Shown here piece by piece: positions 14,186 to 35,777 of a DNA stretch of 48,230 nucleotides. Source of the DNA: a virus; the IMG/VR virus record IMGVR_UViG_3300034121_001201, positions 1-48,230 of that record. One strand, given 5' to 3'. The notes under the pieces are model-generated. The model saw nothing but the letters and a program-made list of their open reading frames with translations. It was not told the origin of the DNA and made no database searches. The number at the start of each line of letters is the position of its first letter. Position 1 is the stretch's first letter. The translations under genes were made by a program, and so were the position numbers.

Positions 14186-14193
14186 GAGGAAAT

Positions 14194-14388: not shown

Positions 14389-14439
14389 TCACAATTTGAC
14401 CTCGCGGGGTCAGCATCAACATAGGAAGCGATTGAGGTC

Positions 14440-17400
14440 GTGACAAGATTTTTGGGAACACCCCTCAAGGGGGAAGGTTTTAGTTCATCTAGCGACGAGG
14501 CTTTTTCAGCCAAGGTCGCTGCTGATACGCAACCAAGAATACGTATTGATGCTGGCGGAAGAATTACGTGGGGTGGCGGGTCTGCCGCTGGCGATGTTTA
14601 TGTGTATCGCTATGGCGCGGACATCATTAAGTTTGTTGGCAATGTTGCTGTTGACGCATTGTTTGTTGATGGTATTGAAGTTGATACTACTGGTGCCACT
14701 CTTGACCAAGTGCTCAAATACAACGGCACTAAATTTGCTCCTGGTACGAACGTTGCGACAGTTGCTTCTATTGACGCTATTGGTGATGTTGTTATTACAT
14801 CTCCACTTCAATTCCAAGGATTGATGTATGACGGAACCAACTGGGTAAACAGCAACATCCCAAATGTATACCTTGTCAGGAATAATACTGGCTCAACCAT
14901 ACTCAAAGGAACCTTGGTTGGTGCTGTTGACGCAGAACCTAGCGGAAGAATAGATGTTGCACCGTTTCAAGTAACAGGAACAGAAAACTCAGAACTTCGT
15001 GCGATGGGCATTGCTACAAGCAATATATCTAGCGGCGTTAACGGCGAAGTGATGAATTTTGGAACTCTAACTGGTCTTGACACAAGAGGAAGCACCGCCA
15101 GTGCACTTGCGGTTGGTGACGAGACTTGGGCTGCTGGTGACATCCTTTTTGCCCACCCAACCGTTGATGGAAAACTCACAAATGTAAGACCACAACATGA
15201 CCTTGCTGTTGCATTCATTACCGTTCGTCATGCTTCCACTGGTCAAATTGCAATAAGAATTATTCCTGGCAACAACCACCTTGAGTGGATGCACGATGTT
15301 TCACTTGTTGATAAAACATCAGGAGACTTCCTTAAGTACAACGGAACTCTTTGGGTTAATGATGCAATTGACCTCGGTACAGACACGACAGGTAACTACA
15401 TGTCGGGCATCTCTGGAACAAGCCCTGTATCTGTGGCGCATACTGCTGGCGAAGGTTCATCGGCTACCGTTTCTTTGGCGGCTAGTTATGGCGATACTCA
15501 GAACCCATATGCATCCAAGACTGCCAACTATGTTTTAGCAGCCCCTGATGGCACCTCTGGCGTTCCTACATTTAGAGCAATTGTTGCTGCCGACATCCCG
15601 ACTCTCAACCAAAACACAACTGGCACCGCCGCCACTGTTACTGGAGCGGCTCAAACAGCAATTACTTCTGTAGGTACTCTTAGTTCTTTGGCGGTCACTG
15701 GTGGCGTGACAGCAGCGAGCCTAACTCTCTCTGGAAATCTTATAGTCAATGGCTCTACTACGACTGTCAACTCAACTGTCACCACGATTGACGACCCTGT
15801 AATTACTCTTGGTGGTGACACTGCTCCAAGTTCCGACGACAATAAAGACCGCGGTATTGAGTTTAGATACCACAATGGTGCAGCAGCAAAAATAGGTTTC
15901 TTTGGTTACGACGACTCTACTGGTCGTTTCGTAATGATTCCCGACGCAACGAATACGAGCGAAGTTTTTGCTGGAACAGTTGGTGACATTCAGGCTGGAA
16001 CTTTTTTTGGTGACCTTTCTGGTACTGCCACAAACATTACTGCTTCATCTAATACTTCTTTAACATCGTTATCCAACTTAACGACTGTGGGCACGCTTGG
16101 GTCACTTATAGTAAGTGGGGCTACTGCTGGTGACCTTGTTCGTATTACCCAGACTGGTGCTGGTAATGCTTTTGTTGTTGAGGATTCAACAAACCCTGAC
16201 TCCACACCTTTTGTTATTAGTGCAAACGGAAATGTTGGTATTGGCACAACCTCACTCACAATTTCAAATCTTGCGATTGCAAGACCTATAACGGGAGGCA
16301 CAACTGCTTACGGGGTTGTTAGCACTGGAGCGATTCAGTCGGATGTAACCACGCAGGCTAACGGTTTTATTTCTTCAATAAATACCACAACAGCAGCGTT
16401 CACTCTTAGTAATCTTAATCACTTTGCTGTTTCTGGTGTTACAACTCCTGGTGCTGGTTCAACAATTACAAACCAGTACGGTTATCTCGTAACTTCACAA
16501 CTTACTGGTGGAACAAACAACTATGCGTTTGCCAGCAACGTTGCTGCTGCTACTGGTCGCTGGAACCTATACATGGGCGGTACAGCCCAAAACTATATGG
16601 CTGGCGGTTTAGGGATTGGCACCCCAACCCCTGCCTCTATGCTCCATGTTGCGGGCGGCGCATTGGGGGGTACCGCAGGTAACGAACTTATTGTTTCGCA
16701 AATTCGTTCAACGAACGCAAACCAAGACATTGTTTATACAAAATATAGGCGTGTATCTACTGGTGCTGACTGGACTACTGCACAGGCTAAAATCCAAAGA
16801 ACCATTGATGCAACCGATATGGGTTATATCGCATTTGGTGGAACCTCAGCACTTGATGTTCGTATCGGTTCAGGCACTACAGACATGGCAGTATTTGCAT
16901 CTACTGGTGTTGATATTGTGGGCAACGTCTCCCTAACAGGGTCAGTTATTTTTGAAGGTGCAACTGCTAACAACTTTGAGACAACTGTCTCGGTTACTGA
17001 CCCGACTGCCGATAGAACAATCACTTTCCCCGATGCCACAGGAACCGTGGCGGTCAGTGGACAGAACGTATCGTTCAACGACGTAACCGTTGCGGGTAAC
17101 CTGAACGTCACTGGTAGTACTTTCGGTAGTGCAACACTTGACGTTGATAACTTCAAAATTACCCTCAACGCCTCTGTTGCAGGAGCCCCAACTCTTAACG
17201 GTGAAATTGAAGTCAACCGTGGCACCTCAACTGATGTCCGTATCCGTTGGAATGAAGTCTCCGACCTCTGGGAATACACAAACGACGGCACCAACTATTC
17301 ACGTATTGGTTCCGCCCTAATGACGGTTTCAGACACCCCGCCATCAAGCCCATACACAGGCGACCTATGGTTTGAATCAGACAGTGGTATTACTTTTGTT

Positions 17401-21104: not shown

Positions 21105-21463
21105 TGGCTGTAACACAAAAACGTCTTGCTGGTCCTGCCCAGTTGACTGCAACAACCGCTGTCTATTACACGACACCAATCAGCACTACCACGATTGTCA
21201 AACAAATTATTCTAACGAACACTACTTCGTCAGCAAAAACTGTGACTGTTCGTTTGAAACCCCTTGGTGTGGCTGAGGCTGCCACACACGACATTATTAG
21301 CGGTATGACTATCAACGCTAACGAAACTATGGCTTTCAACTGTTCGCTAGTTCTCAACAACAATGGTTCTACAGCAAACGCAACTAACAGCGACCAGTTG
21401 ACAGCATTGTGTAGTTCGGCAACGTCAGTCAATATTACGATTGTAGGTATTCAAGAGGCATAA
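21104..21463 (+). CDS. Small beta-rich virion-associated protein, paralogue B
   Basis: 119 residues. Pattern: AVYYTTPISTTTIVKQIILT, NTTSSAKTVTVRL, NANETMAFNCSLVL, VNITIVGIQEA. It is similar in organisation to the 101-residue product of 17786-18091, so the two are likely diverged duplicates serving adjacent fibres. It is overlapped by 1 nt on both sides, indicating tight coupling with the adhesin genes around it. Confidence 0.6.
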   Translation: MAVTQKRLAGPAQLTATTAVYYTTPISTTTIVKQIILTNTTSSAKTVTVRLKPLGVAEAATHDIISGMTINANETMAFNCSLVLNNNGSTANATNSDQLTALCSSATSVNITIVGIQEA

Positions 21464-22170
21464 TGGCTGGCATGGTTCGCTACCCGGCGTTGAACGCCAT
21501 GGCGTCATTTATTGATGCCCCTGACTCCGTCTATGGCACTGGCAATGACGGTTCTGTAACCATGGACGGAAGTACTATCGTTATCGGTATTACGCCCTCT
21601 TCAAATGTTTATACGATGGCTCGCGACACATATTTCTATAATCTGACCATTAGTTCGGGTGTGCGTTTAAACCCAAATGGTTATCGTGTTTTTGTAAAGA
21701 ATCAGTTAATACTCGGTAGCAGCGCAATGATTGGTTATACGACAGGTTTTGCTTCTGCTGGTTCTATCCAACAGGGTGGGGCAGCAAGCACTCCAGTTAC
21801 TCATAGTCTTGGAGGTGCGTCGCAAACACAAACTGCCACATTGCCAATCGCTTCGCTTGGCGGCTCGCAATACTTTCAACAGCCGTTGCAGGCAATAGAT
21901 GGTTTTTCTGTTACCGCATCTGGCGGACCAACATTTTTACGCGGTGGCGCTGGAGGAGTAGGTCAGGCTGGTGGAGGGGTAGTAATTCTTGCTGCCCGCT
22001 ACATCTCTGGACCGACATCTGGGAGCGCAACAATTTCTGCTAAAGCAACATCTCCTGCTGGTGGTGGAGTGATTCTTCTTGTTTCATCTGGCGCAACATT
22101 GCCTACGACTGTAACAACAGACGTGACTGGTTATGCCTCTGGGATATTCTACTATATGCAGTTGGTATAA
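21463..22170 (+). CDS. Glycine-rich adhesin / fibre-tip protein
   Basis: 235 residues. Residues 15-90 carry DSVYGTGNDGSVTMDGSTI then YFYNLTISSGVRLNPNGYRV and FVKNQLIL. A closely similar block occurs at about residues 410-480 of the next, much larger protein, so the two are paralogous. A Gly-rich region (about 155-215: LRGGAGGVGQAGGGVVILAA) is followed by TTDVTGYASGIFYYMQLV. Gly-rich tips of this sort, resembling polyglycine-II sandwiches, bind receptors in T4-like and other phages; that comparison is an inference. Confidence 0.65.
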   Translation: MAGMVRYPALNAMASFIDAPDSVYGTGNDGSVTMDGSTIVIGITPSSNVYTMARDTYFYNLTISSGVRLNPNGYRVFVKNQLILGSSAMIGYTTGFASAGSIQQGGAASTPVTHSLGGASQTQTATLPIASLGGSQYFQQPLQAIDGFSVTASGGPTFLRGGAGGVGQAGGGVVILAARYISGPTSGSATISAKATSPAGGGVILLVSSGATLPTTVTTDVTGYASGIFYYMQLV

Positions 22171-22171
22171 A

Positions 22172-25100
22172 ATGGCTGCGCTTGAAAGAACAGGAACAAA
22201 TAGGGAACTGTACAGGATTGGAGATATCGGTCCTGGTGGTGGGACGATTTTCCTTACCCCAAGTTCAACAGATAACACTACTGGTAAATATTTTGAAGTC
22301 GCTCCTCCCACGTGGACGGGGTCACTTGGGAATACGTTAACGCGAACGAACCTATGTAAAACAAGTTCTTTTGATGGTGGTGTTGGTTTATGGACTGCCA
22401 ATAGTGGGGCAGTAATCACAACTGATACAAACGAGCATCTTGTCAGTGGAAGTTCACTAAAAATTACGTCTTCAACAAGTAATTACAACAACGCCATACA
22501 TGCCCTGATACCCATTACTGCTGGTCAGAAATATGTTTATAGTGCGTACGTAAAAAATGTTGGCGGAAATACGCGACCTGTTTACCTCGCTGTTATTTGG
22601 TTTGCATCAAACGGTTCAACTGTTGTAGGAAGCGAAATGAACTCTGTTTCTCAGGGAGACCTTGCTATTGCAGACGGCTGGCGGCGCAGATGGGTTGCTG
22701 GAACAGCACCAATTGGCTCTGCATTCGCTCGTCTGCATATTTTAAGTGGCACCACGGGTCTGACAACAGCCGACATCACGCGTGCTGACGGTGTTTTGTT
22801 TGAACAAAGTTCTTTTTCTTTTTTATATCCGTTTTTTGATGGTGTGAAATCATATTTAGATTCGTCAATGGCATATACGGCTTTACCAAACCCTGGTACC
22901 GCAGATATTAGAACTCTTACTAATGAGGGTTACAGTATTATTCCAGAAACACGAGCGTGGTCTGGCAGTGCATATAACTCGTCATCAACGAGCACATGGA
23001 TTGGTGGGACAGCAACACCAAAACTTAGAACAAGCAACGTTTCTTTAACTGGATACACTTTATATCCTGATATTGGATTAGGGGCGTCACAGACAGATAT
23101 CATATTTAATTTTGGTTCACAAGAAAATACTGCAGCATATGTTGCAAAACAATATTCTGGCGGTGGTTATACAGACTGGTTTCTTCCATCAACATATGAA
23201 CTCAAGGCACTCGGTGAGGCGCAATTTGCCACTTATAGCGTCGGGGTAGTTTCTACCTCTACGACTACATATGCCACTTCTTCTACTTCTTCTTCTATAT
23301 TGATGAGAAGTTGGGTTGGTAGCACAAGTAGTAATGTGGGTATTTATGAGCCAGTCAATGTGCGTCCAGTACGAATGTTTTCTGCAACACCGTCAACGCA
23401 TGTGCAACGTGCAGGTAACGACTCGGTGTATGGGAACGGATATGACGGCGATGTCACCATTCTTGGTTCAGGACAAATAACTTATCTTTCCAGAGATATG
23501 TATTACAACAATTTGGTTATACCATCGCAAACAATGCTTCACACTAATGGTTACAGAGTTTTTGTTCGTAACAAACTAACTGTTAATGGATACATTGGCG
23601 TCAGCAGTGGTTCAAACACGATATTTGGTTTACTTTATGGAGAACCAAGCGCAGTTACGTCAAGGACAGTCTCTGGAACGACATCCACGAATGCTATTAC
23701 ATATCGTATTGGCGGCAAGGGTGGGGGCGCTACCGCTGATGGTACGAGTCTTCTCCCTACAGGAATTCTGTATTCTTTAGATGTTGCTACTAAAGGTTTG
23801 TTCATTGACCCTAATAACAGTCAGTTGACACCTTTGACTGGTGGTGCTCTTGGTACGCAAGGAAGTCAAGGAACAACATATCCAGCGTTAACTGATTCTG
23901 ATACTTGGTCTGGTAAAACTGCTCCTACGTCTTGGCCTAGCCAGTCTGGTAATGCGGGTAATGCGGGTAATGCGGGTGGTGCTGGTGGAACTGTTGTTGC
24001 TGGTGCGTTAGGTGGTGCTGGTGGATATCCACCAAATGCCCATACTGGCACTGGTACCACTCCTGGTGGAAGAGGCAGTACAGGTAACTCTGGTAATCCG
24101 GGTACGGCTGGAAATCCTGGTGCGACAGGCAACTCAGGAAATCCTGGTACGGCAGGCAACCCTGGTACGGCAACTGGAGCAAATCCGAGTGTAGGTGGTG
24201 CTGGAGGTTCGGCTGGGCAAGGTGGCGCTGTCGTTGTTATTGCAGCCAAAACTATTACTGGTACTGGAAGAATTGTTTCGCTAGGTATTTCTGGCGCATT
24301 AGGTTCTGCTGGAACTACTGGTACTGGTGGTACGGCTGGTACGGCTGGTACGGCTGGAAACGCAGGTACTACTGGCGCAGCGGGCAATGCTGGTAGTGCT
24401 GGCACGGCTGGAAATACTGGAGACGCGGCACCAGGTATTAACACAAGTCCATATCATGCTCATCACCGTCTCGGTTCTGGACATATGAATACTCAGTACG
24501 CAAATGGCGGAGGGCATGATAGCGAACCTGGCGCGCATATTCCGCATGCTCATCTTTCGCAGGATTATCATGACCAGCATCGCGGCTCGCGACTTCATTT
24601 TCATATGCCTCACGGCGGCAATACGGTAAACCATAACCCTCCTGTAGTTACGAGTAACAAGCCATTGACACATGGACCAGGTACGGTCTTTCATAATCCT
24701 TCACACATTCACCATGCAGGTCACACGCACAACCCGCATCATGATGCTCCTCACGGACATAACCATCACACACATAGAAACGATGGGGCGACTTTACACA
24801 GTCCTCATACTTTCGGACCACACCACGGTGCTGCAAACGGGCAGGGCAATGACGGAACTCATGCCTACTACTACTGGGGCGGACATCACGGAACACAACA
24901 TGCAGGCGGACCTCACACCCATGGGTCGGCAGGCAAACATATCGGGTCACCCCACACTGGTACTCATTATGCAGGAGGTGCTGGTGGCGCAGGCGGACCC
25001 GCTGGCATTGCTGGAACGGCAGGAACAGGTGGTACGGGGGGCACAGGGGGTCTCGCTGGACCAGGAGGCACTGCGGCACCCGCACAACCTCAGGGCGGCA

Positions 25101-25261
25101 CAGGTAAGCGTGGGGGTGCAGGCGGTGGAGGAGGTATCATTGTGATAACCGATAGCACCTCATTGGGAAGCGTAACTACCGACGTTACTGCTGGTGCAAC
25201 TCAAGACTCAGATTTCAACACAGCCTCTTCAGGGTTTGTATACTTAATTCAGAACACATAG
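22172..25261 (+). CDS. Giant mosaic adhesin with Lcl-type, CBM-like, glycine- and histidine-rich regions
   Basis: 1029 residues from ATG 22172. In order: the first half of a DUF1566/Lcl-type domain (RIGDIGPGGGTIFL, KYFEVAPPTWTG, residues 12-52); a beta-rich CBM-like insertion (about 55-220: SSLKITSSTSNYNN, AGQKYVYSAYVKN); the second Lcl half (about 238-400: ETRAWSGSAY, GGYTDWFLPSTYELKAL, RPVRMFS); a block paralogous to the preceding gene product (about 410-490); Gly-rich collagen-like repeats (about 560-750); a His-rich tract (756-935, about 41 His); and a second Gly-rich stretch before a TTDVT-type end. Likely the receptor-binding tip of a fibre. The length and the domain inserted within a domain are unusual. 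Confidence 0.75.
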   Translation: MAALERTGTNRELYRIGDIGPGGGTIFLTPSSTDNTTGKYFEVAPPTWTGSLGNTLTRTNLCKTSSFDGGVGLWTANSGAVITTDTNEHLVSGSSLKITSSTSNYNNAIHALIPITAGQKYVYSAYVKNVGGNTRPVYLAVIWFASNGSTVVGSEMNSVSQGDLAIADGWRRRWVAGTAPIGSAFARLHILSGTTGLTTADITRADGVLFEQSSFSFLYPFFDGVKSYLDSSMAYTALPNPGTADIRTLTNEGYSIIPETRAWSGSAYNSSSTSTWIGGTATPKLRTSNVSLTGYTLYPDIGLGASQTDIIFNFGSQENTAAYVAKQYSGGGYTDWFLPSTYELKALGEAQFATYSVGVVSTSTTTYATSSTSSSILMRSWVGSTSSNVGIYEPVNVRPVRMFSATPSTHVQRAGNDSVYGNGYDGDVTILGSGQITYLSRDMYYNNLVIPSQTMLHTNGYRVFVRNKLTVNGYIGVSSGSNTIFGLLYGEPSAVTSRTVSGTTSTNAITYRIGGKGGGATADGTSLLPTGILYSLDVATKGLFIDPNNSQLTPLTGGALGTQGSQGTTYPALTDSDTWSGKTAPTSWPSQSGNAGNAGNAGGAGGTVVAGALGGAGGYPPNAHTGTGTTPGGRGSTGNSGNPGTAGNPGATGNSGNPGTAGNPGTATGANPSVGGAGGSAGQGGAVVVIAAKTITGTGRIVSLGISGALGSAGTTGTGGTAGTAGTAGNAGTTGAAGNAGSAGTAGNTGDAAPGINTSPYHAHHRLGSGHMNTQYANGGGHDSEPGAHIPHAHLSQDYHDQHRGSRLHFHMPHGGNTVNHNPPVVTSNKPLTHGPGTVFHNPSHIHHAGHTHNPHHDAPHGHNHHTHRNDGATLHSPHTFGPHHGAANGQGNDGTHAYYYWGGHHGTQHAGGPHTHGSAGKHIGSPHTGTHYAGGAGGAGGPAGIAGTAGTGGTGGTGGLAGPGGTAAPAQPQGGTGKRGGAGGGGGIIVITDSTSLGSVTTDVTAGATQDSDFNTASSGFVYLIQNT
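23949..24420 (+). repeat. Glycine-codon repeats encoding collagen-like tracts
   Basis: Nine-bp units of the type GGTAATGCG occur three times in tandem at 23949-23975. They are followed by degenerate 9- and 18-bp units encoding GN-S/P-G and GTAGNPG (24087-24177) and three GGTACGGCT-like units at 24330-24356. They encode Gly-X-X tracts inside the giant adhesin and are likely prone to slippage. Confidence 0.7.
24437..24978 (+). other. Histidine-rich segment of the giant adhesin
   Basis: Codons here specify about 41 His in 180 residues, with many H-x-H and HH motifs (HAHH, HIHH, HGHNHHTH, HTH). It lies between two Gly-rich tracts. H-x-H motifs in phage fibre tips are known to bind iron in trimeric needles; metal binding here is an inference from composition. 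Confidence 0.75.
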
Positions 25262-25269
25262 GAGAAAAA

Positions 25270-25512
25270 ATGCCTTTATTTGACGAAATTGACACTAAGC
25301 AGCGTCTACAGATTTTGCGTGGAACTTACAAATCTTTAGAAATTGAACTTTTTGAAGTTTTAACACGTCTGGGAATTGATGTTGATGACTACACTTATGG
25401 TGAGCATCCAGAATTTGCTGATTCAGAAGATAACTGGAATAAACGTCGCGTTATTGAACTAGAAGCAACTTTGGCTACAATTAAGGCAAAGATTGACTCG
25501 CTGGCGGCATAA
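25270..25512 (+). CDS. Small helical protein, unknown function
   Basis: 80 residues after a good AGGAGA ribosome-binding site. Predicted helices: KQRLQILRGTYKSLEIELFE at the start and NKRRVIELEATLATIKAKID at the end, joined by an acidic Tyr-containing loop (DYTYGEHPEFADSED). Possibly a coiled-coil adaptor or fibre-assembly helper given its place directly after the giant adhesin. No recognised family. Confidence 0.55.
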   Translation: MPLFDEIDTKQRLQILRGTYKSLEIELFEVLTRLGIDVDDYTYGEHPEFADSEDNWNKRRVIELEATLATIKAKIDSLAA

Positions 25513-25515
25513 GTA

Positions 25516-25935
25516 ATGCAAAGAGTCTTCTATGTGCCTGCATCAACACCAATTACTGCTGAACTAAGCGAGCAAGCGGAATTGCTTGCTCTATCTGTGC
25601 TGCATGGTGAAAGTGCTTTATCGCGTTATGTTGACTTTGACCGCGACATTGCGCAGCCTATTTCTTTGCCATCCGAAAAAATATGCCTTTTCGCTAACGA
25701 AGTCCCAATAATGCTTCATCAAAGCATTGAGGTAACTAATGATTTTGTTGATATGCGTGACGGCGTAACCCTTGTTTTGAATGGTAAAAAAATTATTGAG
25801 CCGTTGATACTTGAAAAACACTACGCTCGTTATGCCATTGAGTGCACTGGATACGGTGTTCAAGTGTTTGACATATTTGATAAATCTATGCGAATTTTAG
25901 AACACGGGGAGTATTATGTCGTTAACCCTGAGTAA
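25516..25935 (+). CDS. Unknown protein, first gene of the modification cassette
   Basis: 139 residues, mixed alpha/beta, no membrane segment. The C-terminal part (TLVLNGKKIIEPLILEKHY, then YGVQVFDIFDKSMRILEHGE) looks like a small beta domain. It overlaps the following oxygenase gene by 20 nt, so it is probably co-translated with it. Not recognised; a substrate-binding or chaperone partner for the downstream enzymes is possible but unsupported. Confidence 0.5.
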   Translation: MQRVFYVPASTPITAELSEQAELLALSVLHGESALSRYVDFDRDIAQPISLPSEKICLFANEVPIMLHQSIEVTNDFVDMRDGVTLVLNGKKIIEPLILEKHYARYAIECTGYGVQVFDIFDKSMRILEHGEYYVVNPE

Positions 25936-26503
25936 ACCAGCGCCATGTATTTTTGTTTACGAAAATGCTTTGACCGATGGCGAAAAGTTTATTTCAATGC
26001 TTGAAGAGCAAACCAATGACGAATGGTCACCACTGTCTTGGGATTATTCAAAAACTGGTTCAGGACAAATCAGTGAGTACCGCTCATCGCGCATATGTTC
26101 ACTGTTGGACATTACACGCCCCTGTCCAAGTACGCCAATCTCAGATTTGTTAAATAAATCTATTCTCAAAGATATAGATACGTGCCTTAGTGATTACAGC
26201 ACATATCACGGGATTACTGCGTTTATCGGCAATGAAGGTTGGATTGTTCTCAAATATGAGGGTCAAGCGCAATATCGCACCCACTGGGACCACGCACCAG
26301 ATAACGCCAGAACAGTTTCTATTGTGGCATTCCCTTACTCAACAACCAAGGTTGGCGGAGAACTAACATTCCCGCATTTCGGGATAACAATTAAACCCAA
26401 AACTGGTTCAGTAGTTATATTTCCATCTAATTTCCCCTACACGCATACGGCGCATCCAGTTGAAGATGGTGTCAAGTATTCACTTGTTACGTGGTTGAGG
26501 TAG
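25916..26503 (+). CDS. Fe(II)/2-oxoglutarate-dependent oxygenase (prolyl-hydroxylase type), copy 1
   Basis: 195 residues. The double-stranded beta-helix signature is complete: His123 and Asp125 in THWDHAPDNART, then GGELTFPHFGITIKPKTGSV (the GG-L-F-P and PK-G segments), a distal histidine in THTAHPV (His177 or His180), and Lys187 in KYSLVTWL for 2-oxoglutarate. The fold couples O2 and 2-oxoglutarate to hydroxylation or related oxidation of protein side chains, nucleotides or small molecules. The substrate is not evident. The start overlaps the previous gene by 20 nt, and a second oxygenase closes the cassette at 30023. Confidence 0.8.
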   Translation: MSLTLSKPAPCIFVYENALTDGEKFISMLEEQTNDEWSPLSWDYSKTGSGQISEYRSSRICSLLDITRPCPSTPISDLLNKSILKDIDTCLSDYSTYHGITAFIGNEGWIVLKYEGQAQYRTHWDHAPDNARTVSIVAFPYSTTKVGGELTFPHFGITIKPKTGSVVIFPSNFPYTHTAHPVEDGVKYSLVTWLR

Positions 26504-26505
26504 AG

Positions 26506-26766
26506 ATGGAATACGAAAACATTCCAAATGAAAGATTTGCATGGCTCGGCATTGCACCGCCACCAGATGGTGTTGTTGTTCCAGAAGATAATCCCGTCCC
26601 AATTGTTAAGGACATATTGCCACCTAATCAAGTGACTGGCGCAGACGAAGGTCTTGGTATATTCAGGTGGCTTATGGCAGACGAAGATGAGCGACAAGAC
26701 ACATTGTCAGGGTGTAGATTGCTTGACAACTTCGTTTATATGCAAATACCAAAGGAAGACGATTGA
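26506..26766 (+). CDS. Small acidic Pro-rich protein, unknown function
   Basis: 86 residues. ATG 26506 was chosen because GAGGTAGAG lies just upstream across the previous stop; an in-frame GTG at 26491 would overlap the oxygenase. The product is acidic and Pro-rich (IAPPPDGVVVPEDNPVPIV), then helical (LGIFRWLMADEDERQD). The stop overlaps the next ATG by 1 nt. No family recognised; small partner of the surrounding enzymes by context. Confidence 0.5.
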   Translation: MEYENIPNERFAWLGIAPPPDGVVVPEDNPVPIVKDILPPNQVTGADEGLGIFRWLMADEDERQDTLSGCRLLDNFVYMQIPKEDD

Positions 26767-26996
26767 TGGCTATAACATTTGACTACTCTGATAGTAACAA
26801 TCATATTCAGGCTTTAACGGCACAGGTTAAAACTTTGATTGATGTTGACTACGATTTTGTTGACGCTAACAACGTTGAGGCTTTTAGGGTTGCTGCAAAA
26901 GCAGTGAATGAACCAGTGCGCAGTAAATTGCTTCACATGCTCAACTTTATTGTTTTTAATAGTCAAGTAAATAGCGTGTATGGAGATAAACAATGA
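26766..26996 (+). CDS. Small protein, unknown function
   Basis: 76 residues from ATG 26766, which shares its A with the previous TGA (a TTG at 26763 is also in frame). The sequence is helical (HIQALTAQVKTLIDVDYDFV, RSKLLHMLNFIVFN) and not membrane-like. It overlaps the next start by 4 nt (ATGA). Unrecognised. The chain of overlaps makes it part of the modification operon. Confidence 0.5.
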   Translation: MAITFDYSDSNNHIQALTAQVKTLIDVDYDFVDANNVEAFRVAAKAVNEPVRSKLLHMLNFIVFNSQVNSVYGDKQ

Positions 26997-27736
26997 GTGA
27001 GATTAATATTGTCACAGTCGGGAATGCGACTCATCGCATAAGTTCATTTTCGTGTCCTCCACAGTTGCCCTCTATTATTGAGTTCAAGGATTTTAGTCGT
27101 GCTATCTATTCTCGGTTGACAGAATCAGATAAATTTGATTTACGTACTTCTTCACGTTCTGAAGAGTTTCTTGCTTATGGTTTGGTAGGAGCCCCTGGTG
27201 GCGAGGACATTGCCCCAGTTGTTTGGAGTTCACATGGGCAAGCAGAAATGTATGGACGGCTATGTGGGGCAAAGGACGTTTTTATACATAGCGTTCCGTA
27301 CGCTATTTATTTTGCTGCCCATAACTACGAAAATGTTTATGTTCTAAATTGTGCTTCAACACTTATTGCGGGTTCGCATGATACTGCGAGTGATGCAGAT
27401 ATCACAAATGTAACAACACTTTCATGGGACGATGCTTACAACAATATGCCCGAACTTGATATGGCTGTTGTGATGTATTCACATATCTGTGCCGACGATT
27501 CCTTATTTGATGCAATCATGAACGCTATGAAGCCAAACGGAGTAGTTATCATCCACAACTCAAGCAATGGTGGTGCCCTGTATGAGGTACTTGGAGACAA
27601 GAAGCCTCTAGATATGGCTGCACAGGTTTCTCTTTCCGCTCTGCTACACAAAAAGATTCTTGACAGAGGCGATTTTTTGACGCAACATTTTCAGGGCTGG
27701 GTTTCTCACACTGTCTGCGTTAAACTGCCATCATGA
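26993..27736 (+). CDS. Possible SAM-dependent methyltransferase-like (Rossmann) protein
   Basis: 247 residues. The C-terminal half has a beta-alpha-beta order like class I methyltransferases: ENVYVLNCASTLIAGSHD at the motif I position, LDMAVVMYSHICADDSLFD (post-motif strand and helix), and AMKPNGVVIIHNSSNGGALY (the motif III KPGG-like turn). The glycine-rich motif I is poorly conserved, so SAM binding is uncertain; a glycosyltransferase-like or inactive Rossmann protein is an alternative. It is coupled by 4-nt overlaps to the small gene before and the halogenase after. Confidence 0.4.
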   Translation: MSEINIVTVGNATHRISSFSCPPQLPSIIEFKDFSRAIYSRLTESDKFDLRTSSRSEEFLAYGLVGAPGGEDIAPVVWSSHGQAEMYGRLCGAKDVFIHSVPYAIYFAAHNYENVYVLNCASTLIAGSHDTASDADITNVTTLSWDDAYNNMPELDMAVVMYSHICADDSLFDAIMNAMKPNGVVIIHNSSNGGALYEVLGDKKPLDMAAQVSLSALLHKKILDRGDFLTQHFQGWVSHTVCVKLPS

Positions 27737-29223
27737 CTAACGAACACGAACCTATAAGTTTTGGGATTGTTGGCTCTGGTACGGCAGGGCTAATTTCTGC
27801 AATCATGCTCAGGCAGGCATTTCCGTTATCTAAAGTAACGATTATTTCCTCAAGTACAATCGGCATCATTGGGGTCGGAGAAGGAAGCACTGAACATTGG
27901 CGCGAATTTATGAATTTGTGCGATATTCCGCTTGAACAGATGTTAGTGAAAACAGCCGCTACACATAAATACGGTATTCGTTTTGAAGGTTGGTCAGGTT
28001 CGTTCCCTGATTATTTTCATAGTGTTTCTGGCGATGAACAACTTTACGGGTGGGGTCATTACCCGACATATGCGGGCATTCTTGAGAATGGCGACTCATT
28101 AACGAGCCAGACGAGCAGTATTGGTTTAATTCAAAACAAAATTAAACGCGAGAATTTACATTCCAATACTAACCAATACCATTTTGACACTTTCAAACTT
28201 AATAACTATTTTACCGAACTATGCTTTAAGCGTTCCATCAAAATGATTGATGGTCAAGTTACCGATGTTAAGCGCCACAGTGAAACAGGAAACATCTCTA
28301 GCGTACTTCTTGATAACGGAAGTTCTGTAGAAGCAGACCTTTGGATTGACGCAAGTGGATTCTCCCGTGTATTAATGAACAAACTAGATGCTTCTAATTG
28401 GAATTCATTCTCTGACTACCTCCTCGTTGATTCTGCAATAGCCGCCCCATCCGAATCATCATCAGACGGAATACGTCCATACACGAGAGCAATAGCCAAA
28501 GATGCTGGATGGATATGGGAAATCCCAACACAAGAACGGCGTGGAAATGGATACGTTTACTCATCGCAGTTTGTTTCTGACGATGAGGCTATTGCAACTT
28601 TAGAGAAACAAATCGGACCGCTATCTATTGCTCCACGAACATTCAAATTTGATGCAGGTCATGTTAAGGAAGTTTGGGTCAAGAATTGTATGGCTATCGG
28701 TTTGGCTGCTGCTTTTGTTGAACCGCTAGAAGCAACATCAATTGGTAGTGCAATTCAGCAAATAAAATATGCAATACCGTATTTTGCGTCATTTGAGCAA
28801 AAACATACGGCATCGCAAAAGCATTACAACAAACTGTTCACAACAATGATGGATAACATTTTGACGATGATTCGCCTTCATTACATATCGGATAGGCGTG
28901 ATACTCCATTCTGGACTGCTTCTTCTGAAATGAAAATTAATGACTCGCTTCAAGAACTTCTTGACCTTTGGCAAGAGAGAGTTCCATGTCGTAATGACGT
29001 AGGAACAATCAATGGGGAGATGTTCCATGCACCTCACTTATTCCACGTTGCACAAGGACAAGGTGTTTTAAATAGTCGCGCAGCAACCTTGATGATTGAC
29101 AATTTTAATCTTCGCAAACAAGTGGAGTTAGATATTTCAAATCGTCGCCATGCCCGTTTTAATCATGAGTTGGTTGACCATCGTGAATCGCTTGATATGC
29201 AATTTGAGGACAAACTACTGTGA
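27733..29223 (+). CDS. Flavin-dependent halogenase (tryptophan-halogenase family) homologue
   Basis: 496 residues, close to the usual 500-540 of the family. The FAD-binding G-S-G-T-A-G is at residues 14-19. GVGEGST is at 48-53. The catalytic lysine of the family falls at Lys79 in THKYGIRFEGW, the same number as in PrnA. The halogenase hallmark W-x-W-x-I-P is present as WIWEIP (260-265), followed by NGYVYSSQFVSDDEA, and FVEPLEATSIGSAIQQI near the chloride and flavin site (329-343). Family members use FADH2, O2 and halide to make hypohalous acid that reaches the substrate through the lysine. No flavin reductase is visible. A viral relative, cyanophage VirX1, iodinates substrates in vitro. It overlaps both neighbours by 4 nt. 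Confidence 0.85.
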   Translation: MTNEHEPISFGIVGSGTAGLISAIMLRQAFPLSKVTIISSSTIGIIGVGEGSTEHWREFMNLCDIPLEQMLVKTAATHKYGIRFEGWSGSFPDYFHSVSGDEQLYGWGHYPTYAGILENGDSLTSQTSSIGLIQNKIKRENLHSNTNQYHFDTFKLNNYFTELCFKRSIKMIDGQVTDVKRHSETGNISSVLLDNGSSVEADLWIDASGFSRVLMNKLDASNWNSFSDYLLVDSAIAAPSESSSDGIRPYTRAIAKDAGWIWEIPTQERRGNGYVYSSQFVSDDEAIATLEKQIGPLSIAPRTFKFDAGHVKEVWVKNCMAIGLAAAFVEPLEATSIGSAIQQIKYAIPYFASFEQKHTASQKHYNKLFTTMMDNILTMIRLHYISDRRDTPFWTASSEMKINDSLQELLDLWQERVPCRNDVGTINGEMFHAPHLFHVAQGQGVLNSRAATLMIDNFNLRKQVELDISNRRHARFNHELVDHRESLDMQFEDKLL

Positions 29224-30026
29224 GCCTGCGGAAAATTGATAAGTATAGCGATATTAAAGTTCCTGAGGGAAAGATTGTTATTGTCCCTTGGGATAACCGT
29301 CTCCTTGAACTGCCTCCTTATTCTAACGATAGGGCTCCAGTTCCTCAGTGGATTAAAGATTCTCCTAGCACGCAAGGTTCAATTAGGCGCTGTGCAGCAA
29401 CAATGGATTTTGTTTCTTCTGGCATAACAATCCCTGCTTGGACAAACTTTCGTTTTAACAAAACCGAAGGTGAAGATTCATGGGATTTTACTTGCGACCA
29501 GTTTGATGGCTTTGGGGCACATGAACATTTTGTGAATCAACCGTTTGCTTTTGAGCAAACAGGCTCATGTCCTATGACTAAAGTGCGGGCGATGGAAAAT
29601 GTGGGGTACCCAAAGTTGGTTAACCCTTTTAGAATCATTACTGCACCAGGTTGGTCAACAATGATTTTGCCAGTTCTTTATGAGCCATCACGACATTTTT
29701 CTGTATTACCAGGCATTGTAAACACCGACTATTATCATGAATCAAACTGTGTGCTTAATTTGCTTGGCAAAGAGTCATTCACTATCCCGTGGGGCGCACC
29801 CTTGATGCATCTAATTCCAATTAAAAGAAGCACGATGGCGCACAGTATTGAATTCCTTGATGAAAGTGCATTCAAGTATGTTGTTGGGCGCGGATTTGGT
29901 TCTGGTGCTTTAAAACCCACTGGGGATGGATGGTCTTCTGCTCGTCTTTATCGCGGTTATAGGTTTAGGCGCGATGCAGAACTCGCTGAAGATAGCCAGA
30001 AAAAAAAGTGGTGGAAAACTAAATGA
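29220..30026 (+). CDS. Phage protein of unknown function associated with the halogenase (possibly DUF6065-like)
   Basis: 268 residues from a GTG that overlaps the halogenase stop (GTGA). Features: IVIVPWDNRLLELPPYSNDR, APVPQWIKDSP, SSGITIPAWTNFRF, YPKLVNPFRIITAPGWSTMI, IPWGAPLMHLIPIKRSTM. The final PxGxPLxxLIPIKR pattern and P-W motifs recall a family of phage and bacterial proteins of unknown function (I think DUF6065, from memory), with cupin-like beta strands. It consistently looks enzymatic or ligand-binding rather than structural. It also overlaps the second oxygenase by 4 nt, so it is part of the cassette. Confidence 0.55.
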   Translation: MSLRKIDKYSDIKVPEGKIVIVPWDNRLLELPPYSNDRAPVPQWIKDSPSTQGSIRRCAATMDFVSSGITIPAWTNFRFNKTEGEDSWDFTCDQFDGFGAHEHFVNQPFAFEQTGSCPMTKVRAMENVGYPKLVNPFRIITAPGWSTMILPVLYEPSRHFSVLPGIVNTDYYHESNCVLNLLGKESFTIPWGAPLMHLIPIKRSTMAHSIEFLDESAFKYVVGRGFGSGALKPTGDGWSSARLYRGYRFRRDAELAEDSQKKKWWKTK

Positions 30027-30718
30027 TTTTCCCTTCTGGCGTTGGTGGCGCTATTGCTTACAAAGATAATGTTTTAAGCGATTCGTTGTGCGCTGACATT
30101 ATTGAATATGCGGAAACACACAGCAGCATGATGTACGAAGGTCCAACTATTAGTGGAATTAACAAGCATATAAAGAATTGTTACGATTTTTCTTTGTCGT
30201 ATTACAGTGACCATGCAGAAACTGATGAGCAGCGAAAAGAATTGGCTGCTCTTAATGATTTGGTGTTTGAATCTTTTTCTCCTGCATTGGAAGAATATTG
30301 CTCATACTACGAAGGCTTAAATAACTGGACTAACAGATACGACACTGGATATCAATTTCAAAAATATGCCGCCAATGAAGGGTTCTACAAGCCTCATTGT
30401 GATGGCGGAGTATATGAGGCTGAGGGTCTTGGAAATCGGGTACTTGGTGTCGTCATGTATCTGAACACCGTAACCAAAGGTGGGGGGACAAACTTTCCGC
30501 TGCATGAAGTTACTGTTGATTCTGTTTGTGGACGTATTTCGTTTTTCCCTGCTAACTTCACGCATCCTCATGCTGGGTTGATGCCGCTGTCTTCTCCCAA
30601 GTACATTATTAGTACTTTTTGCTATACGGTTCCGAGTGCCCCTAGTGTGGATACTGCGGTTGCGGAACTTGCTTTGAACTATGATGAGCAGTTCAAGCAG
30701 ACGCCAGATGCATTATAA
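30023..30718 (+). CDS. Fe(II)/2-oxoglutarate-dependent oxygenase, copy 2
   Basis: 231 residues. The catalytic set is clear: His125 and Asp127 in YKPHCDGG, the core strand VVMYLNTVTKGGGTNFPLHE, the distal His in FTHPHAG (His181 or His183) after GRISFFPANF, and Lys193 in PKYIISTF. This is a prolyl-4-hydroxylase-type enzyme, similar in plan but not close in sequence to the first copy at 25916. It closes the coupled run of five overlapping genes (26766-30718). Its likely target is unknown; fibre proteins encoded on either side or the product of the halogenase are candidates. Confidence 0.8.
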   Translation: MIFPSGVGGAIAYKDNVLSDSLCADIIEYAETHSSMMYEGPTISGINKHIKNCYDFSLSYYSDHAETDEQRKELAALNDLVFESFSPALEEYCSYYEGLNNWTNRYDTGYQFQKYAANEGFYKPHCDGGVYEAEGLGNRVLGVVMYLNTVTKGGGTNFPLHEVTVDSVCGRISFFPANFTHPHAGLMPLSSPKYIISTFCYTVPSAPSVDTAVAELALNYDEQFKQTPDAL

Positions 30719-33040: not shown

Positions 33041-33066
33041 TGCTACACTGTATTGGAGGTGTAGCA
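33041..33066 (+). promoter_or_regulatory. Hairpin around the ribosome-binding site, with an overlapping extended -10
   Basis: TGCTACAC (33041-33048) pairs perfectly with GTGTAGCA (33059-33066). The loop carries GGAG of the Shine-Dalgarno sequence and the right arm ends on the A of the start codon. The same left arm reads TGC-TACACT (33041-33049), an extended -10 hexamer like that of a minus-strand promoter at 46471. No good -35 is present. If the hairpin acts in mRNA, read-through transcripts would be poorly translated, while transcripts from the local promoter would lack the left arm and be free; this is an inference. Confidence 0.45.
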
Positions 33067-35777
33067 TGGGGAAAATATCGCGGTTAACACGGCTGCTCAT
33101 ATTCATACCTGTAGCAGTAATGGCATGGGTCGTACCCCCTATTTCCTCTGTCCACGCAACAGGATATCCCGAAGACCAAAACTGGGAAGCCGTCACCTAT
33201 GGGGACGGAAAATTTGTTGCTGTTGCCTCATCTGGTAACGGTAACCGTGTGATGACGTCAACAGATGGCGACTACTGGGTTTCAAGAACTTCTGCTTCCG
33301 ACAGCAACTGGCAAGGGATTACATACGCCGACAATCAGTTTGTTGCAGTTGGCTCAAATGCGGTCATGACCTCGCCTGACGGTGTTACGTGGACATCAAG
33401 AACTGCACCAACAGGAGAATGGCAAGCAATCACGAACTGTGGCGGTCTTTTTGTTGCTACCGCGACTTGGGGGAGTAGTTATGTAATGTCTTCCACGGAT
33501 GGTGTTGAATGGACATTGCGCACTCCCGCCTATGGATGGTCACATGATGCGGTTGCCTGTAGTGCAGAAGTTCCACGGTTTGTTTCCGTGTCTCAGTTCG
33601 GTAGAGCATGGTCTTCCGCTAATGGCACTACTGGCTGGTCTACTCAAAACCCTGGTGCAATTGTAGATATCCGAACAGTTGCGTTTGGCAATGGTCGCTT
33701 TACATGGCTTGAGTACAGCACAAACTCGGGAAATAGATATGGTGGTTACTCCACGAACGGATTGAACTGGTCTGCTGGAATTGTTCCATCTAATCAATGG
33801 AAGTACATCACCTACGGCGGAGATAAATTTATTGCGGTAGCGGAAGGCGGATTAAATTCCCGTTCTGCTTATTCAACTGATGGCGCGAACTGGACGCTAG
33901 GTTCTGGGGTTCCGAATAACTCGTGGCAAGGTGTTGCTTATGGGGCTGGGAAATATGTTGCTGTAGCAAACTCTGGAACAGACAACAGGGTTATGACTTC
34001 TACGGATGGTCAATCATGGGAGAGTTTGTCTGTCACGCCACCTCCGTACTTTAATGCGGTCACAAACTTGACGGCTGTTGCCAACGCAGATGGAAGCGTT
34101 GACCTTGATTGGGATGCGCCAACGTCAAGCAATGTTGATATCTACGCCTACGCGGTTACGTTCTATGACCTTGACGAAATTGACGGTACCACCTCTGGCG
34201 GTTGGGGGGTTTGGACTAACCAAGGAACTACTTACTCACTGGGTGAATGGATGTTCTCTGGAGGCAACCCCGTAACTACTGGATTCGGACCCGTTCGTTT
34301 TGGTATCAAAGCGGGAAATCAAAGTTGTTTCTCTAACGAAGGTGTGGGTCCATGCGTTTACGGACCCGAAACCACTGTTGATGTAACGGTTCTTGACCCA
34401 ACTCCACCTTCAACTACAACAACTGAACCTGAAACAACTACGACCACTCAACCAGAACCAACCACTACTACTCAACCAGAACCAGAAATTACTCAACCAG
34501 AAACAACTACAACAGAGCCAGAAACTGTTGTAACCATTCCAGAAACCACGACTACCGTTCCAGAATCACCGCCTTCAGGAACAACAACAACCGTTCCATT
34601 AGAGGAGGAAACGACAGTTGAGACACCCACGAACACGGATAATTCCGAAGATACAGAATCCACCACCTCGCTACCACAATATGCCCCAGAACAAGAGGCA
34701 ACAACGGATGAAACGCCGATAGTTGTTCCCGAAGATACGCAAGACGCAGCCGATACTGCGGTTGCAGACATTTTTGACGGTCCTATGTCAGACGACAAAC
34801 TCGCGGACGCTGTTGATGATTTGGTTGCTGACGCTGAAACACCTGAAGAACTAACGGCGGTTGTTACTGCGCTTCTTGACCAAGAACTATCGGATGAACA
34901 GTTCTCTACCGTTATTGATTCTGTTTTCTCTGAACCTTTATCTGATGAAAATTTTGCTGCTGCTATAGACGCTGTGTTTGAAGACCCGACTCAACTATCG
35001 GAAGCACAGTTTGAGGATGCAGTTGCCGCAGTGTTTGATGCACCTCTTTCTGATGAGCAGTTCCAAGACGCCGTTGCAGCAGTCTTTGAAGACACCGAGT
35101 CTCTGAGTGACGAGCAGTTTGATACCGCAGTACAGGCAGTCTTTGATGAGCCTCTAAGTACAGAGCAATTCGCTGAAGCCCTTAGTGCAGTCTTTGATGA
35201 ACCTATTTCTGACGATAAATTTGATGCGATTATTGATGCTGTTTTGGATGAACCAATTTCCGATGAGCAATTTGAGGAACTGGTTAATGTCTTGGAATCT
35301 GACACAGTTACTGAGGAGCAGGTTTCGGCTGCTGTTGACTCGGTTATTGAAAATGGGGTTACGGAAGACCAAGCCGTTGACCTCGCTACGAGCGAAAAAG
35401 TTTTGCAAAGTATTGACGGTGAGCAGGCAGCAGAAATCTTTGATGCTGTTGATATCTCAAATGTAAACCCAGAAGAGGCAGCGCAACTGGTTGCAGCGGT
35501 TCAAGACGCCCCAACCGAGGTTAGGGAATCTCTGGAATCTGAAATTAACGTTTTTGACGGAGCCATTGATATCTATGTTCCGCTCGGCTCTGGGGTTGAC
35601 GTCGGCACACGTCGCGTCATTGTTGCTGCTGCTGGTGTATTATTTGTAGCACCAACTATTATGCCTATTACTCCAACAGCCCCATTAAATGGTAGTGGTA
35701 ATAATAATCCATCTCCAAATGGTGGCGGAGGTGCTTCGGTGTCAACAGAACCACGCAGAAGGGTTAGAGGAAAATGA
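33066..35777 (+). CDS. Secreted beta-propeller / FnIII surface protein with acidic repeats
   Basis: 903 residues. It has a Sec signal peptide (basic KISRLTR, then LLIFIPVAVMAWVVPPI, likely cleaved near SVHA). Residues 35-320 hold seven repeats of about 42 residues of the type WQGITYADNQFVAVG...VMTSPDGVTW, a seven-bladed propeller. A FnIII-like domain follows (about 330-440), then a Thr/Pro/Glu linker (TTTTEPETTTTTQPEP) common in actinobacterial surface proteins. About eleven acidic repeats of 17-18 residues (LSDEQF..AV.AVFDEP) follow, then a hydrophobic helix near residue 855 (VIVAAAGVLFVAPTIMPI) and a basic end. It is exported by the host rather than being an ordinary virion protein. It may alter the host surface or exclude other phages; these roles are inferred. 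Confidence 0.7.
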   Translation: MGKISRLTRLLIFIPVAVMAWVVPPISSVHATGYPEDQNWEAVTYGDGKFVAVASSGNGNRVMTSTDGDYWVSRTSASDSNWQGITYADNQFVAVGSNAVMTSPDGVTWTSRTAPTGEWQAITNCGGLFVATATWGSSYVMSSTDGVEWTLRTPAYGWSHDAVACSAEVPRFVSVSQFGRAWSSANGTTGWSTQNPGAIVDIRTVAFGNGRFTWLEYSTNSGNRYGGYSTNGLNWSAGIVPSNQWKYITYGGDKFIAVAEGGLNSRSAYSTDGANWTLGSGVPNNSWQGVAYGAGKYVAVANSGTDNRVMTSTDGQSWESLSVTPPPYFNAVTNLTAVANADGSVDLDWDAPTSSNVDIYAYAVTFYDLDEIDGTTSGGWGVWTNQGTTYSLGEWMFSGGNPVTTGFGPVRFGIKAGNQSCFSNEGVGPCVYGPETTVDVTVLDPTPPSTTTTEPETTTTTQPEPTTTTQPEPEITQPETTTTEPETVVTIPETTTTVPESPPSGTTTTVPLEEETTVETPTNTDNSEDTESTTSLPQYAPEQEATTDETPIVVPEDTQDAADTAVADIFDGPMSDDKLADAVDDLVADAETPEELTAVVTALLDQELSDEQFSTVIDSVFSEPLSDENFAAAIDAVFEDPTQLSEAQFEDAVAAVFDAPLSDEQFQDAVAAVFEDTESLSDEQFDTAVQAVFDEPLSTEQFAEALSAVFDEPISDDKFDAIIDAVLDEPISDEQFEELVNVLESDTVTEEQVSAAVDSVIENGVTEDQAVDLATSEKVLQSIDGEQAAEIFDAVDISNVNPEEAAQLVAAVQDAPTEVRESLESEINVFDGAIDIYVPLGSGVDVGTRRVIVAAAGVLFVAPTIMPITPTAPLNGSGNNNPSPNGGGGASVSTEPRRRVRGK
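34770..35390 (+). repeat. Repeated acidic 17-18-residue units in the secreted protein
   Basis: DNA units of about 51-57 bp encode LSDEQF-x(2)-A-x(2)-AVFDEP-type repeats about eleven times. They share segments such as GATGAGCAGTT and GCAGTCTTTGA. Copy number could vary by recombination. Confidence 0.7.

Follow-up and report, generated by a model that had tools for sequence, protein, structure and literature searches.

Why should a phage carry a flavin-dependent halogenase homologue and two 2-oxoglutarate (2OG) oxygenases in the midst of its tail genes? The question is raised by a virus record of IMG/VR (IMGVR_UViG_3300034121_001201), 48,230 bases long and analysed here over its whole length (the window), in which eight genes between positions 25516 and 30718 follow closely upon a pair of fibre genes. 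We find that the halogenase homologue belongs to a recurrent set comprising the fibre pair, the halogenase homologue itself, a partner protein of predicted dUTPase fold and, usually, one 2OG oxygenase; this set, and the likeness to it of the locus encoding the cyanophage enzyme VirX1, are what is new here. The explanation that we favour, at a little short of an even chance, is that the targets of these enzymes lie in the phage's own fibre tip, which is rich in glycine and histidine, and that the genes constitute a fibre-maturation cassette.

Along the plus strand the eight genes encode a 139-residue protein (25516–25935), 2OG oxygenase 1 (25916–26503), two small proteins of 91 and 77 residues (26491–26766 and 26763/26766–26996), a 247-residue accessory protein (26993–27736), the halogenase homologue (27733–29223), the dUTPase-fold partner (29220–30026) and 2OG oxygenase 2 (30023–30718). 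Before them on the same strand are fibre 1 (21463–22170), a 235-residue glycine-rich beta protein and the cassette's constant neighbour, fibre 2 (22133–25261), with 1042 residues, and an 80-residue gene (25270–25512). A previous sequence-only reading of the window had described the eight genes as co-directional and the last five as joined by 4-nucleotide overlaps, and so they are: the four junctions are ATGA at 26993, 27733 and 30023, and GTGA at 29220, while the junction preceding the five is TGATG, which gives an overlap of 1 nucleotide from the ATG at 26766 or of 4 nucleotides from the TTG at 26763. Tail and baseplate matches to PHROG lie upstream, long fibre-like genes on both sides and an endolysin (VanY) downstream. 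Relative to contig L003, the ratio of nonsynonymous to synonymous substitution (dN/dS) is 0.03 for the halogenase gene, 0.04 for oxygenase 1, 0.06 for the partner, 0.027 for 26993–27736 and 0.07 for 25516–25935. These values, which cover five of the eight genes (oxygenase 2 being saturated and the two small genes left out), show that the cassette genes are under purifying selection; synonymous sites are saturated in most comparisons with L004. Purifying selection, together with recurrence in other contigs, makes the gene set more than a chance assembly.

How firmly are the enzymes tied to the fibres? Searching viral contigs for the halogenase returned 44 loci, 43 of them with the full gene (in the excluded L045 it is cut by the contig end); contigs L002 and L005 are identical to the window over this gene. 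The partner adjoins the halogenase in 40 of these 43 loci and a window-type 2OG gene lies nearby in 40, with L032, L035 and L039 lacking both. When the partner alone was the query and the best 80 of 193 matches were kept, the halogenase was adjacent in 80 of 80 loci, with a window-type 2OG gene in 71 and fibre 1 in 67, many of the remainder being cut by contig ends; two partner matches occur among 84,980 cellular genomes, both with the halogenase. Fibre 1 alone (best 80 of 340 matches) leads to the halogenase in 64 of 79 loci. The 15 loci without it have at most 3.1 kb downstream, and wherever at least 3.5 kb is available the halogenase is present (63/63 loci, 40/40 distinct fibres); of the 58 loci with 6 kb or more, all have the partner and 56 a 2OG gene. 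A repeat of the scan that started from a distant fibre 1 (best 80 of 322 matches) meets the halogenase in 62 of 63 loci where 3.5 kb or more is available and in 55 of 55 where there is at least 6 kb, and the sole miss, L377, has 3.6 kb downstream and a 2OG gene. The halogenase, partner and two fibre scans share contigs and their counts are not independent. Nevertheless, with the halogenase adjacent from partner or fibre searches, the coupling to fibre genes that the sequence-only reading had proposed is stronger than that reading could know, and homologues occurring only singly were not met in this clade.

Such linkage could be uninformative about function if it recorded no more than a single phage lineage in which genes keep fixed places, and a single broad group of uncultured phages does account for most of the loci. 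Against this, 14 loci with long flanks retain fibre-1-type genes in 13 cases (two or three per locus), the partner in 13, a 2OG gene in 12 and the 80-residue gene in 12, while neighbours outside the set reach at most nine. The 14 loci were thinned by a crude ungapped comparison, and include L024 and L025, 97% identical (13 loci if these are merged), and L043 and L180, 88% identical. The link between fibres and enzymes also survives rearrangement, since inverted, reordered and duplicated forms stay together: in L143–L146 the halogenase, partner and oxygenase genes lie next to the fibres in the opposite orientation, the 2OG gene may stand before the halogenase or after the partner, and the fibre pair and enzymes occur twice in one phage (L036/L038 and L151/L152). 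L032, L035 and L039 have another glycine-rich fibre type (PF21722, Gly_rich_2), one gene away from a probable 2OG gene; the latter lies directly upstream of the halogenase, matches phrog_274 and is recognised by PF13640 below the cut-off in two of the three loci and not in the third. Nearness to glycine-rich genes recurs, moreover, on separate branches of the halogenase tree. We consider genomic hitch-hiking very improbable; the fibre pair, halogenase, partner, 80-residue gene and, usually, a 2OG oxygenase form a real cassette beyond shared synteny.

What kind of enzyme stands at its centre? The protein encoded at 27733–29223 matches PF04820 at 352.5 bits, compared with a curated cut-off of 21 (E 4.6e-105), and phrog_2928 (E 5e-109), and it contains the GSGTAG, K79 and WIWEIP features on which its original recognition was based. 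K79, W260 and E333, the last of which we take to be equivalent to the PrnA active-site glutamate, are invariant in all 34 distinct halogenase sequences, the window's included; the second W of the WxW motif is F in 8 of the 34, and K79 is kept in 19 of 19 aligned phage enzymes. The clade has its own C-terminal motif, HVxQGQ-like, and alignment with most relatives in the PDB ends at residue 400–446. In a phylogenetic tree the window clade and VirX1 fall on different supported branches, and the window is not grouped with VirX1. The stretch that we take to be the canonical halide site, EPLESTG, is intact in VirX1 and reads EPLEATS in the window, with A334 in 34 of 34 sequences of the clade; for this reason we name the protein a flavin-dependent halogenase homologue, with putative halogenating activity.

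The same stretch invites the view that the clade's flavoenzyme does not halogenate at all, and is instead a flavin oxidase or monooxygenase of PF04820 fold which, with the 2OG enzyme, hydroxylates or cross-links the fibre. The fixed alanine and the contrast with active VirX1 argue for it; the invariance of K79, E333 and W260 within the clade, and of K79 among phage enzymes, argues against it, as does the presence of alanine elsewhere, as EPLEATG in S-SZBM1 and S-WAM1 on the VirX1 branch itself and as EPLEATS in P-SSM2, S-H38 and HTVC008M. S-SCSM2R has EPLEASS. A non-halogenating enzyme is in our estimation quite unlikely. Halogenation itself, as first offered for the cassette, is nonetheless not supported, given the deviating halide motif.

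The two oxygenases bear out their first description. Both exceed the PF13640 cut-off of 27 bits, oxygenase 1 at 45.5 (E 1.5e-11) and oxygenase 2 at 37 (E 7.1e-9), with sites at H123/D125/H177/K187 and H125/D127/H183/K193, respectively. In alignments of oxygenase 1, H123 is conserved in 29 of 29 rows, D125 and H177 in 28 of 29 each and K or R187 in 29 of 29; for oxygenase 2, H125 and D127 are conserved in 12 of 12 rows, and H183 and K193 in all 11 rows with letters at those positions. Loss of catalytic residues, which the sequence-only reading had weighed as a case against itself, is seen solely in one extra oxygenase copy (L031). By their residues these are clearly prolyl-4-hydroxylase-like 2OG oxygenases with the HxD...H...K/R site intact, a site shared with the phage enzymes of PF13640 and phrog_61, and protein hydroxylation is their putative activity. 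A need for two such enzymes, as had been supposed, is not supported: halogenase, partner and fibre are indeed linked in other phages, but one 2OG gene per locus is usual, the second type is represented by 12 distinct copies, and some full loci (L110, L114, L123 and L180) have no window-type 2OG gene, so that the oxygenase is a usual rather than universal member. Where present it keeps close to the halogenase. The 34 IMG/VR records searched include 17 contigs of at least 40 kb, with 23 PF13640 hits among them; 19 of these hits fall no more than 4.5 kb from the halogenase chosen, compared with 2.85 expected, and two of the remaining four adjoin a second halogenase of the same contig. Reference phages differ in having 7–11 PF13640 matches per genome in 10 of 12 cases, as against 0–3 per contig here, although these contigs may be fragments. 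As a separate matter, phrog_274, labelled DNA endonuclease V, matches the probable 2OG genes of L032, L035 and L039 and, more weakly, both oxygenases of the window, and its label seems doubtful.

The partner protein had been described as a conserved phage protein of unknown function; it has a predicted dUTPase fold. It matches phrog_7084, and its AlphaFold2 model (predicted local distance difference test, pLDDT, 78.3; predicted template modelling score, pTM, 0.70; 19-row alignment) retrieves with Foldseek 73 PDB chains at E ≤ 0.001, the best at 3.1e-5; the 50 shown are all dUTPases or dCTP deaminases. Comparison with dUTPases by VIA-align gives Z 9.6 over 123 residues (root-mean-square deviation 4.3) and Z 9.5 over 106 residues (2.2). 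At the level of profiles the resemblance is fainter: five of the 19 proteins in the alignment match PF00692 with an E-value of 1 or below (best 1.1e-6), the window protein having no Pfam match at that threshold, and a profile of the partner finds dUTPases in the PDB weakly (best E 0.0097). The motif-3 aspartate, which we take to be the catalytic residue of dUTPases, is replaced by N or H in aligned relatives, and we therefore file the protein as dUTPase-fold and not as a dUTPase; the model predicts a dUTPase fold with an altered catalytic position. DUF6065 (PF19541), which like PF00692 resembles the partner in fold and in the motif-3/4 region, stays below the cut-off and reaches E ≤ 1 in two of the 19 proteins aligned, with 0.19 as its best value. 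It was rejected as a bacterial guide to function, occurring in 2 of 274 genomes of one class, one of which is the centre itself. By way of observation, contig L215 encodes a DUF6065 protein and has a long ORF that appears fibre-like by eye; seven of its ORFs match 2OG profiles, and it has no halogenase. L216 matches none of the five profiles used.

A dUTPase fold might suggest that the partner binds a nucleotide and that the oxidative enzymes decorate the bases of phage DNA, and in phage S-RIM4 a distant partner homologue does lie near ribonucleotide reductase genes. The loss of the motif-3 aspartate speaks against this, even though the dUTPase of white-spot virus likewise has N at that position; so do the location of the window's cassette with tail genes and the membership of its oxygenases in PF13640, which we take to be distinct from the thymine/5-methylcytosine dioxygenase family. 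Modification of DNA is accordingly the explanation in which we place least belief, bordering on the negligible.

If the enzymes act on a fibre, what does the fibre offer? Fibre 1 aligns over 18 rows (alignment A2) with 48 invariant columns and is modelled with a pLDDT of 88.4. The model has no match in the PDB at E ≤ 0.001, and the protein belongs to no Pfam or PHROG family; in BFVD, the model resembles parts of collagen-like proteins from the giant viruses Pandoravirus and Orpheovirus. Among 50,697 deposited phage records fibre 1 has one weak match (E 4e-4, 24% covered), and hence no isolate of the clade was found. Fibre 2 contains a fibre-1-like domain, a CBM_4_9 domain by Pfam, a collagen-like match slightly below the cut-off and a histidine-rich stretch with 37 His in 175 residues between glycine-rich flanks. 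His makes up 4.5% of the window's fibre 2 and a median of 7.83% (2.84–16.0) of 71 distinct fibre-2 proteins, compared with 1.12% in 393 other ORFs of at least 300 residues from the same loci, and in 66 of 71 loci no other long ORF is as rich in His as fibre 2. His, Tyr and Trp all occur in the window's fibre tip. The HxH metal needle is known from fibres of the T4 gp37 type; such a signature was rejected for the histidine-rich stretch, as the eight HxH motifs in the window's fibre equal the 7.6 expected from composition, although the richness in histidine is itself real.

In the fibre-maturation cassette that we favour, the enzymes, encoded among tail genes, would work in the cytoplasm on the fibre tip, either ahead of assembly or while it proceeds. 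The prolyl-4-hydroxylase-like oxygenase would hydroxylate side chains of the fibre 2 tip, the flavin-dependent enzyme would halogenate, or otherwise oxidise, side chains in this glycine-rich, histidine-rich and aromatic region, and the dUTPase-fold partner, rather than acting as a dUTPase, may be a docking scaffold that brings the halogenase to the fibre. The host would supply reduced flavin and 2-oxoglutarate, and the likely gain would be a stabler tip or altered receptor binding. We take this as the best reading because substrate and enzymes are adjacent, because no export is needed and because neither inversion, duplication nor a change of fibre type has parted them. Functional parallels are the halogenases of ribosomal peptides such as MibH, which also act on a ribosomally made chain, though here the proposed substrate is a large fibre, and phage virion glycosylation, in which a phage enzyme acts on its own virion; both likenesses would be of function only. 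Canonical dUTPases are trimers, and so are phage fibres. VirX1 is likewise reported to be a trimer, with an open active site (PMC8407142). Because all three are trimers, a threefold docking complex of halogenase, partner and fibre is an attractive but speculative idea.

Could the target be the host instead? On this account the enzymes alter the host's receptor or surface and so block phages of the same fibre type (superinfection exclusion), fibre linkage arising because the enzyme is matched to the specificity of the fibre. Linkage of the kind reported above is equally expected, and a glycosyltransferase lies downstream in 6 of the 14 long loci and beside the halogenase of DSL-LC01, an actinobacterial phage. 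This family (PF00534) occurs 2.5–7.8 kb downstream of the halogenase (in L024 at 14125–15192, E 1.9e-17, with relatives in L025, L026, L043, L044 and L180) and not in the window's locus. The other 8 of the 14 loci, which include the window's, have no such gene in the set, and in the window the cassette sits among tail and fibre genes. Furthermore, 2OG oxygenases and flavin halogenases need cytoplasmic cosubstrates, and a halogenase needs an aromatic target, which surface glycans do not offer. Glycosyltransferases in the variable host-recognition islands of pelagiphages have been proposed to modify the surface of the host (PMC7029224). Given the glycosyltransferase in 6 of 14 loci, a gene that may stand for such change or for further modification of the fibre, we judge an altered host surface unlikely as an account of the cassette while giving it some weight.

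Does the association extend beyond this clade? We chose 21 reference records with a PF04820 gene for species spread before their contexts were seen, with Syn10 included as VirX1's phage and DSL-LC01 for its host, and scored a record as positive if any halogenase in the fetched region qualified (one of three places was fetched for S-RIM44). In 10 of 21 records, including Syn10, S-SZBM1, Sf-CH3, S-WAM1, P-RSM6, S-RIM44 and P-TIM40, the halogenase has a glycine-rich ORF (at least 150 residues, 18% Gly) no more than 6 kb away. Measured against a background of 11 genomes, from which S-SCSM2R (W06) is absent, such ORFs are near 6 of 12 loci when 1.24 are expected (P 0.0005); the two halogenases of Syn10 share one fibre region, and counted apart they give 7 of 13 as against 1.32. 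Syn10 AGH56623.1 is VirX1, by full-length match to 6qgm, an enzyme whose structure has reportedly been solved and which is said to have been assayed on small aromatics. The second Syn10 halogenase is AGH56624.1, and the phage's glycine-rich proteins are AGH56626.1 and AGH56627.1. Upstream of the VirX1 gene are proteins matching Gly_rich_2 and phrog_863, 'tail fiber assembly', and PF13640 2OG genes lie downstream. The window's enzyme thus shares with VirX1 the PF04820 fold, K79, a viral origin and glycine-rich, tail-fibre-type neighbours, and differs in its branch of the tree and in its halide stretch; the dUTPase-fold partner matches three phage records, and Syn10 is not among them. The S-SRM01 halogenase lies between a tail fibre, from which it stands one gene apart, and an annotated gp37-gp38 adhesin tip, which follows it directly; this adhesin-tip protein (L222, 8485–9573) has a Trp/Cys-rich loop and zero His. 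DSL-LC01 has collagen-like genes upstream. The fibre-linked cases lie on separate branches, namely the window clade, the VirX1 clade, S-SRM01 and DSL-LC01 (the last two on long, uncertain branches), and between them are lineages without such neighbours (the P-SSM2 group apart from S-H38, S-PM2/Syn1 and HTVC008M). Overall, two clades show a strong fibre link and others a suggestive one, and 11 of 21 records show none.

On another account, the cassette would make a small halogenated compound, an antibiotic or a signal, as proposed for cyanophage prnA. The PrnA-type genes of P-SSM2, S-PM2 and Syn1 belong to the same enzyme family (P-SSM2, S-H38 and S-SCSM2R forming a sister branch), and differ in having no glycine-rich gene within 6 kb; some lineages also lie amid metabolic genes, with S-MbCM6 near psbA and hli and Syn1 near talC and hli. 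In the accessible parts of the literature they are treated as metabolic (PMC2984593, PMC10452541), prnA is the subject of speculation about protection against antibiotics (PMC2984593, PMC9146016), and VirX1 is described as halogenating many small aromatics in vitro (PMC8407142). For the present cassette the evidence points the other way. Pfam scans of representatives of nine further recurrent families, which are not all of those that recur, gave no match for seven, a VanY endolysin and a glycosyltransferase, and recognised zero known biosynthetic enzymes; the constant companions are fibres. The sequence-only reading had offered fibre modification and a small compound side by side, and of the two the former is the better supported; we regard auxiliary metabolism as improbable here.

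A bolder proposal would embrace the fibre-linked cases as a dedicated line of protein halogenation in tailed phages, in which a trimeric adaptor of dUTPase fold brings a flavin halogenase into place and a prolyl-hydroxylase-like oxygenase works beside it, the two enzymes marking the fibre tip with halogen and hydroxyl. This would be the natural job of fibre-linked viral halogenases, VirX1 included, and would have evolved or been re-coupled several times with unrelated glycine-rich adhesins. We offer it as speculative and doubtful, though not far-fetched.

Several observations weigh against fibre-tip modification. Within the clade there are the altered halide stretch, the HxH count at the level of composition, the glycosyltransferases, the linkage that a host-surface target would equally predict, and the retention of best matches by scans whose contigs overlap. 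Among the reference phages, the glycine threshold was fixed after a first look at six reference loci, and no glycine-rich ORF lies within 6 kb of the halogenase in P-SSM2, HTVC008M, S-SCSM2R (where the region ends 0.5 kb downstream of the halogenase), S-PM2, S-B64 (which belongs to the VirX1 branch), AG-345-E02 (whose halogenase is nearly the same as that of P-SSM2), S-SSM7, S-MbCM6, Syn1, AG-345-O18 or MT835646, where a Gly-rich ORF overlaps the halogenase in another frame and was excluded from the count of ten. A 2OG gene lies within 6 kb of 7 of 13 reference halogenases when 3.51 are expected, a small excess; S-SRM01 and DSL-LC01 combine fibre and halogenase with no 2OG gene in that range; Sf-CH3 has a second halogenase away from fibres; and S-RIM4, with its distant partner homologue (24.9%), has no halogenase annotated within 8 kb. 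His amounts to 0.0 and 0.7% in the fibre proteins of S-SRM01 and DSL-LC01, and since histidine enrichment is no general feature beyond the clade, the data do not point to any one target residue. For S-SZBM1, a virion proteome without any long-tail-fibre protein and the absence of long tail fibres by electron microscopy are reported, the same lack being cited for S-WAM1, P-RSM6 and P-TIM40 (PMC9146016); the glycine-rich proteins of these four phages may belong to other tail parts.

Cyanophage halogenase genes have been counted among the auxiliary metabolic genes from 2010 or earlier, without agreement on what they are for (PMC2984593, PMC3037559), and prnA is treated there and elsewhere as metabolic or protective (PMC2984593, PMC9146016, PMC10452541, PMC3037559). 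The DSL-LC01 halogenase is mentioned without a fibre context in the corresponding portion of PMC10611076, and freshwater actinophages of Nanopelagicales are described, again in part of the source, as having a variable island with collagen-like proteins (PMC10202952). In searches of open-licence literature that extended to oxygenase modification of tail fibres, titles, abstract openings and text passages gave no description of a halogenase acting on, or linked to, phage fibres. A tie to fibres in every examined contig of sufficient length in this clade (one short contig excepted), combined with the similar locus of VirX1, supplies a concrete candidate substrate in a culturable phage. Were the proposal true, halogenation and hydroxylation would join the known ways in which viruses finish their receptor-binding proteins, and it would name a partner protein that might steer halogenation to proteins.

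Several features of the window and its relatives remain to be described. The 247-residue protein at 26993–27736 had been thought a possible Rossmann-type or S-adenosylmethionine (SAM)-dependent enzyme; that identity was rejected, Pfam giving no significant family for the window protein and seven relatives. Methyltransf_12 appears at E 0.04 in two of the seven and hits are weak throughout, amounting to a weak methyltransferase resemblance. By our reading of the scan, its relatives occupy the same position in a minority of loci, 20 of 80 partner loci, and the gene is an accessory and not, as first supposed, part of the core. Of three genes initially considered small orphans, the 139-residue gene at 25516–25935 has no Pfam or PHROG match and is no orphan, its family being present in 9 of 14 loci; the 91- and 77-residue genes, the latter with its ATG at 26766, are indeed lineage-specific, found by blastp in L002–L005 only among L002–L045. 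The 80-residue gene has no Pfam match and a weak one to phrog_28768. Elsewhere in the window, a 903-residue protein (33066–35777) has a Thr/Glu/Pro-rich linker, after which come several degenerate repeats of LSDEQF type. One contig placed in an Actinomycetota metagenome-assembled genome bin (L133, RHAS01000028.1) contains a 2OG gene, halogenase and partner, a hint at actinobacterial hosts. Finally, the window has at 40352–40975 a match to a proteasome subunit (PF00227, E 1.8e-9), which in a phage contig would fit an actinobacterial host.

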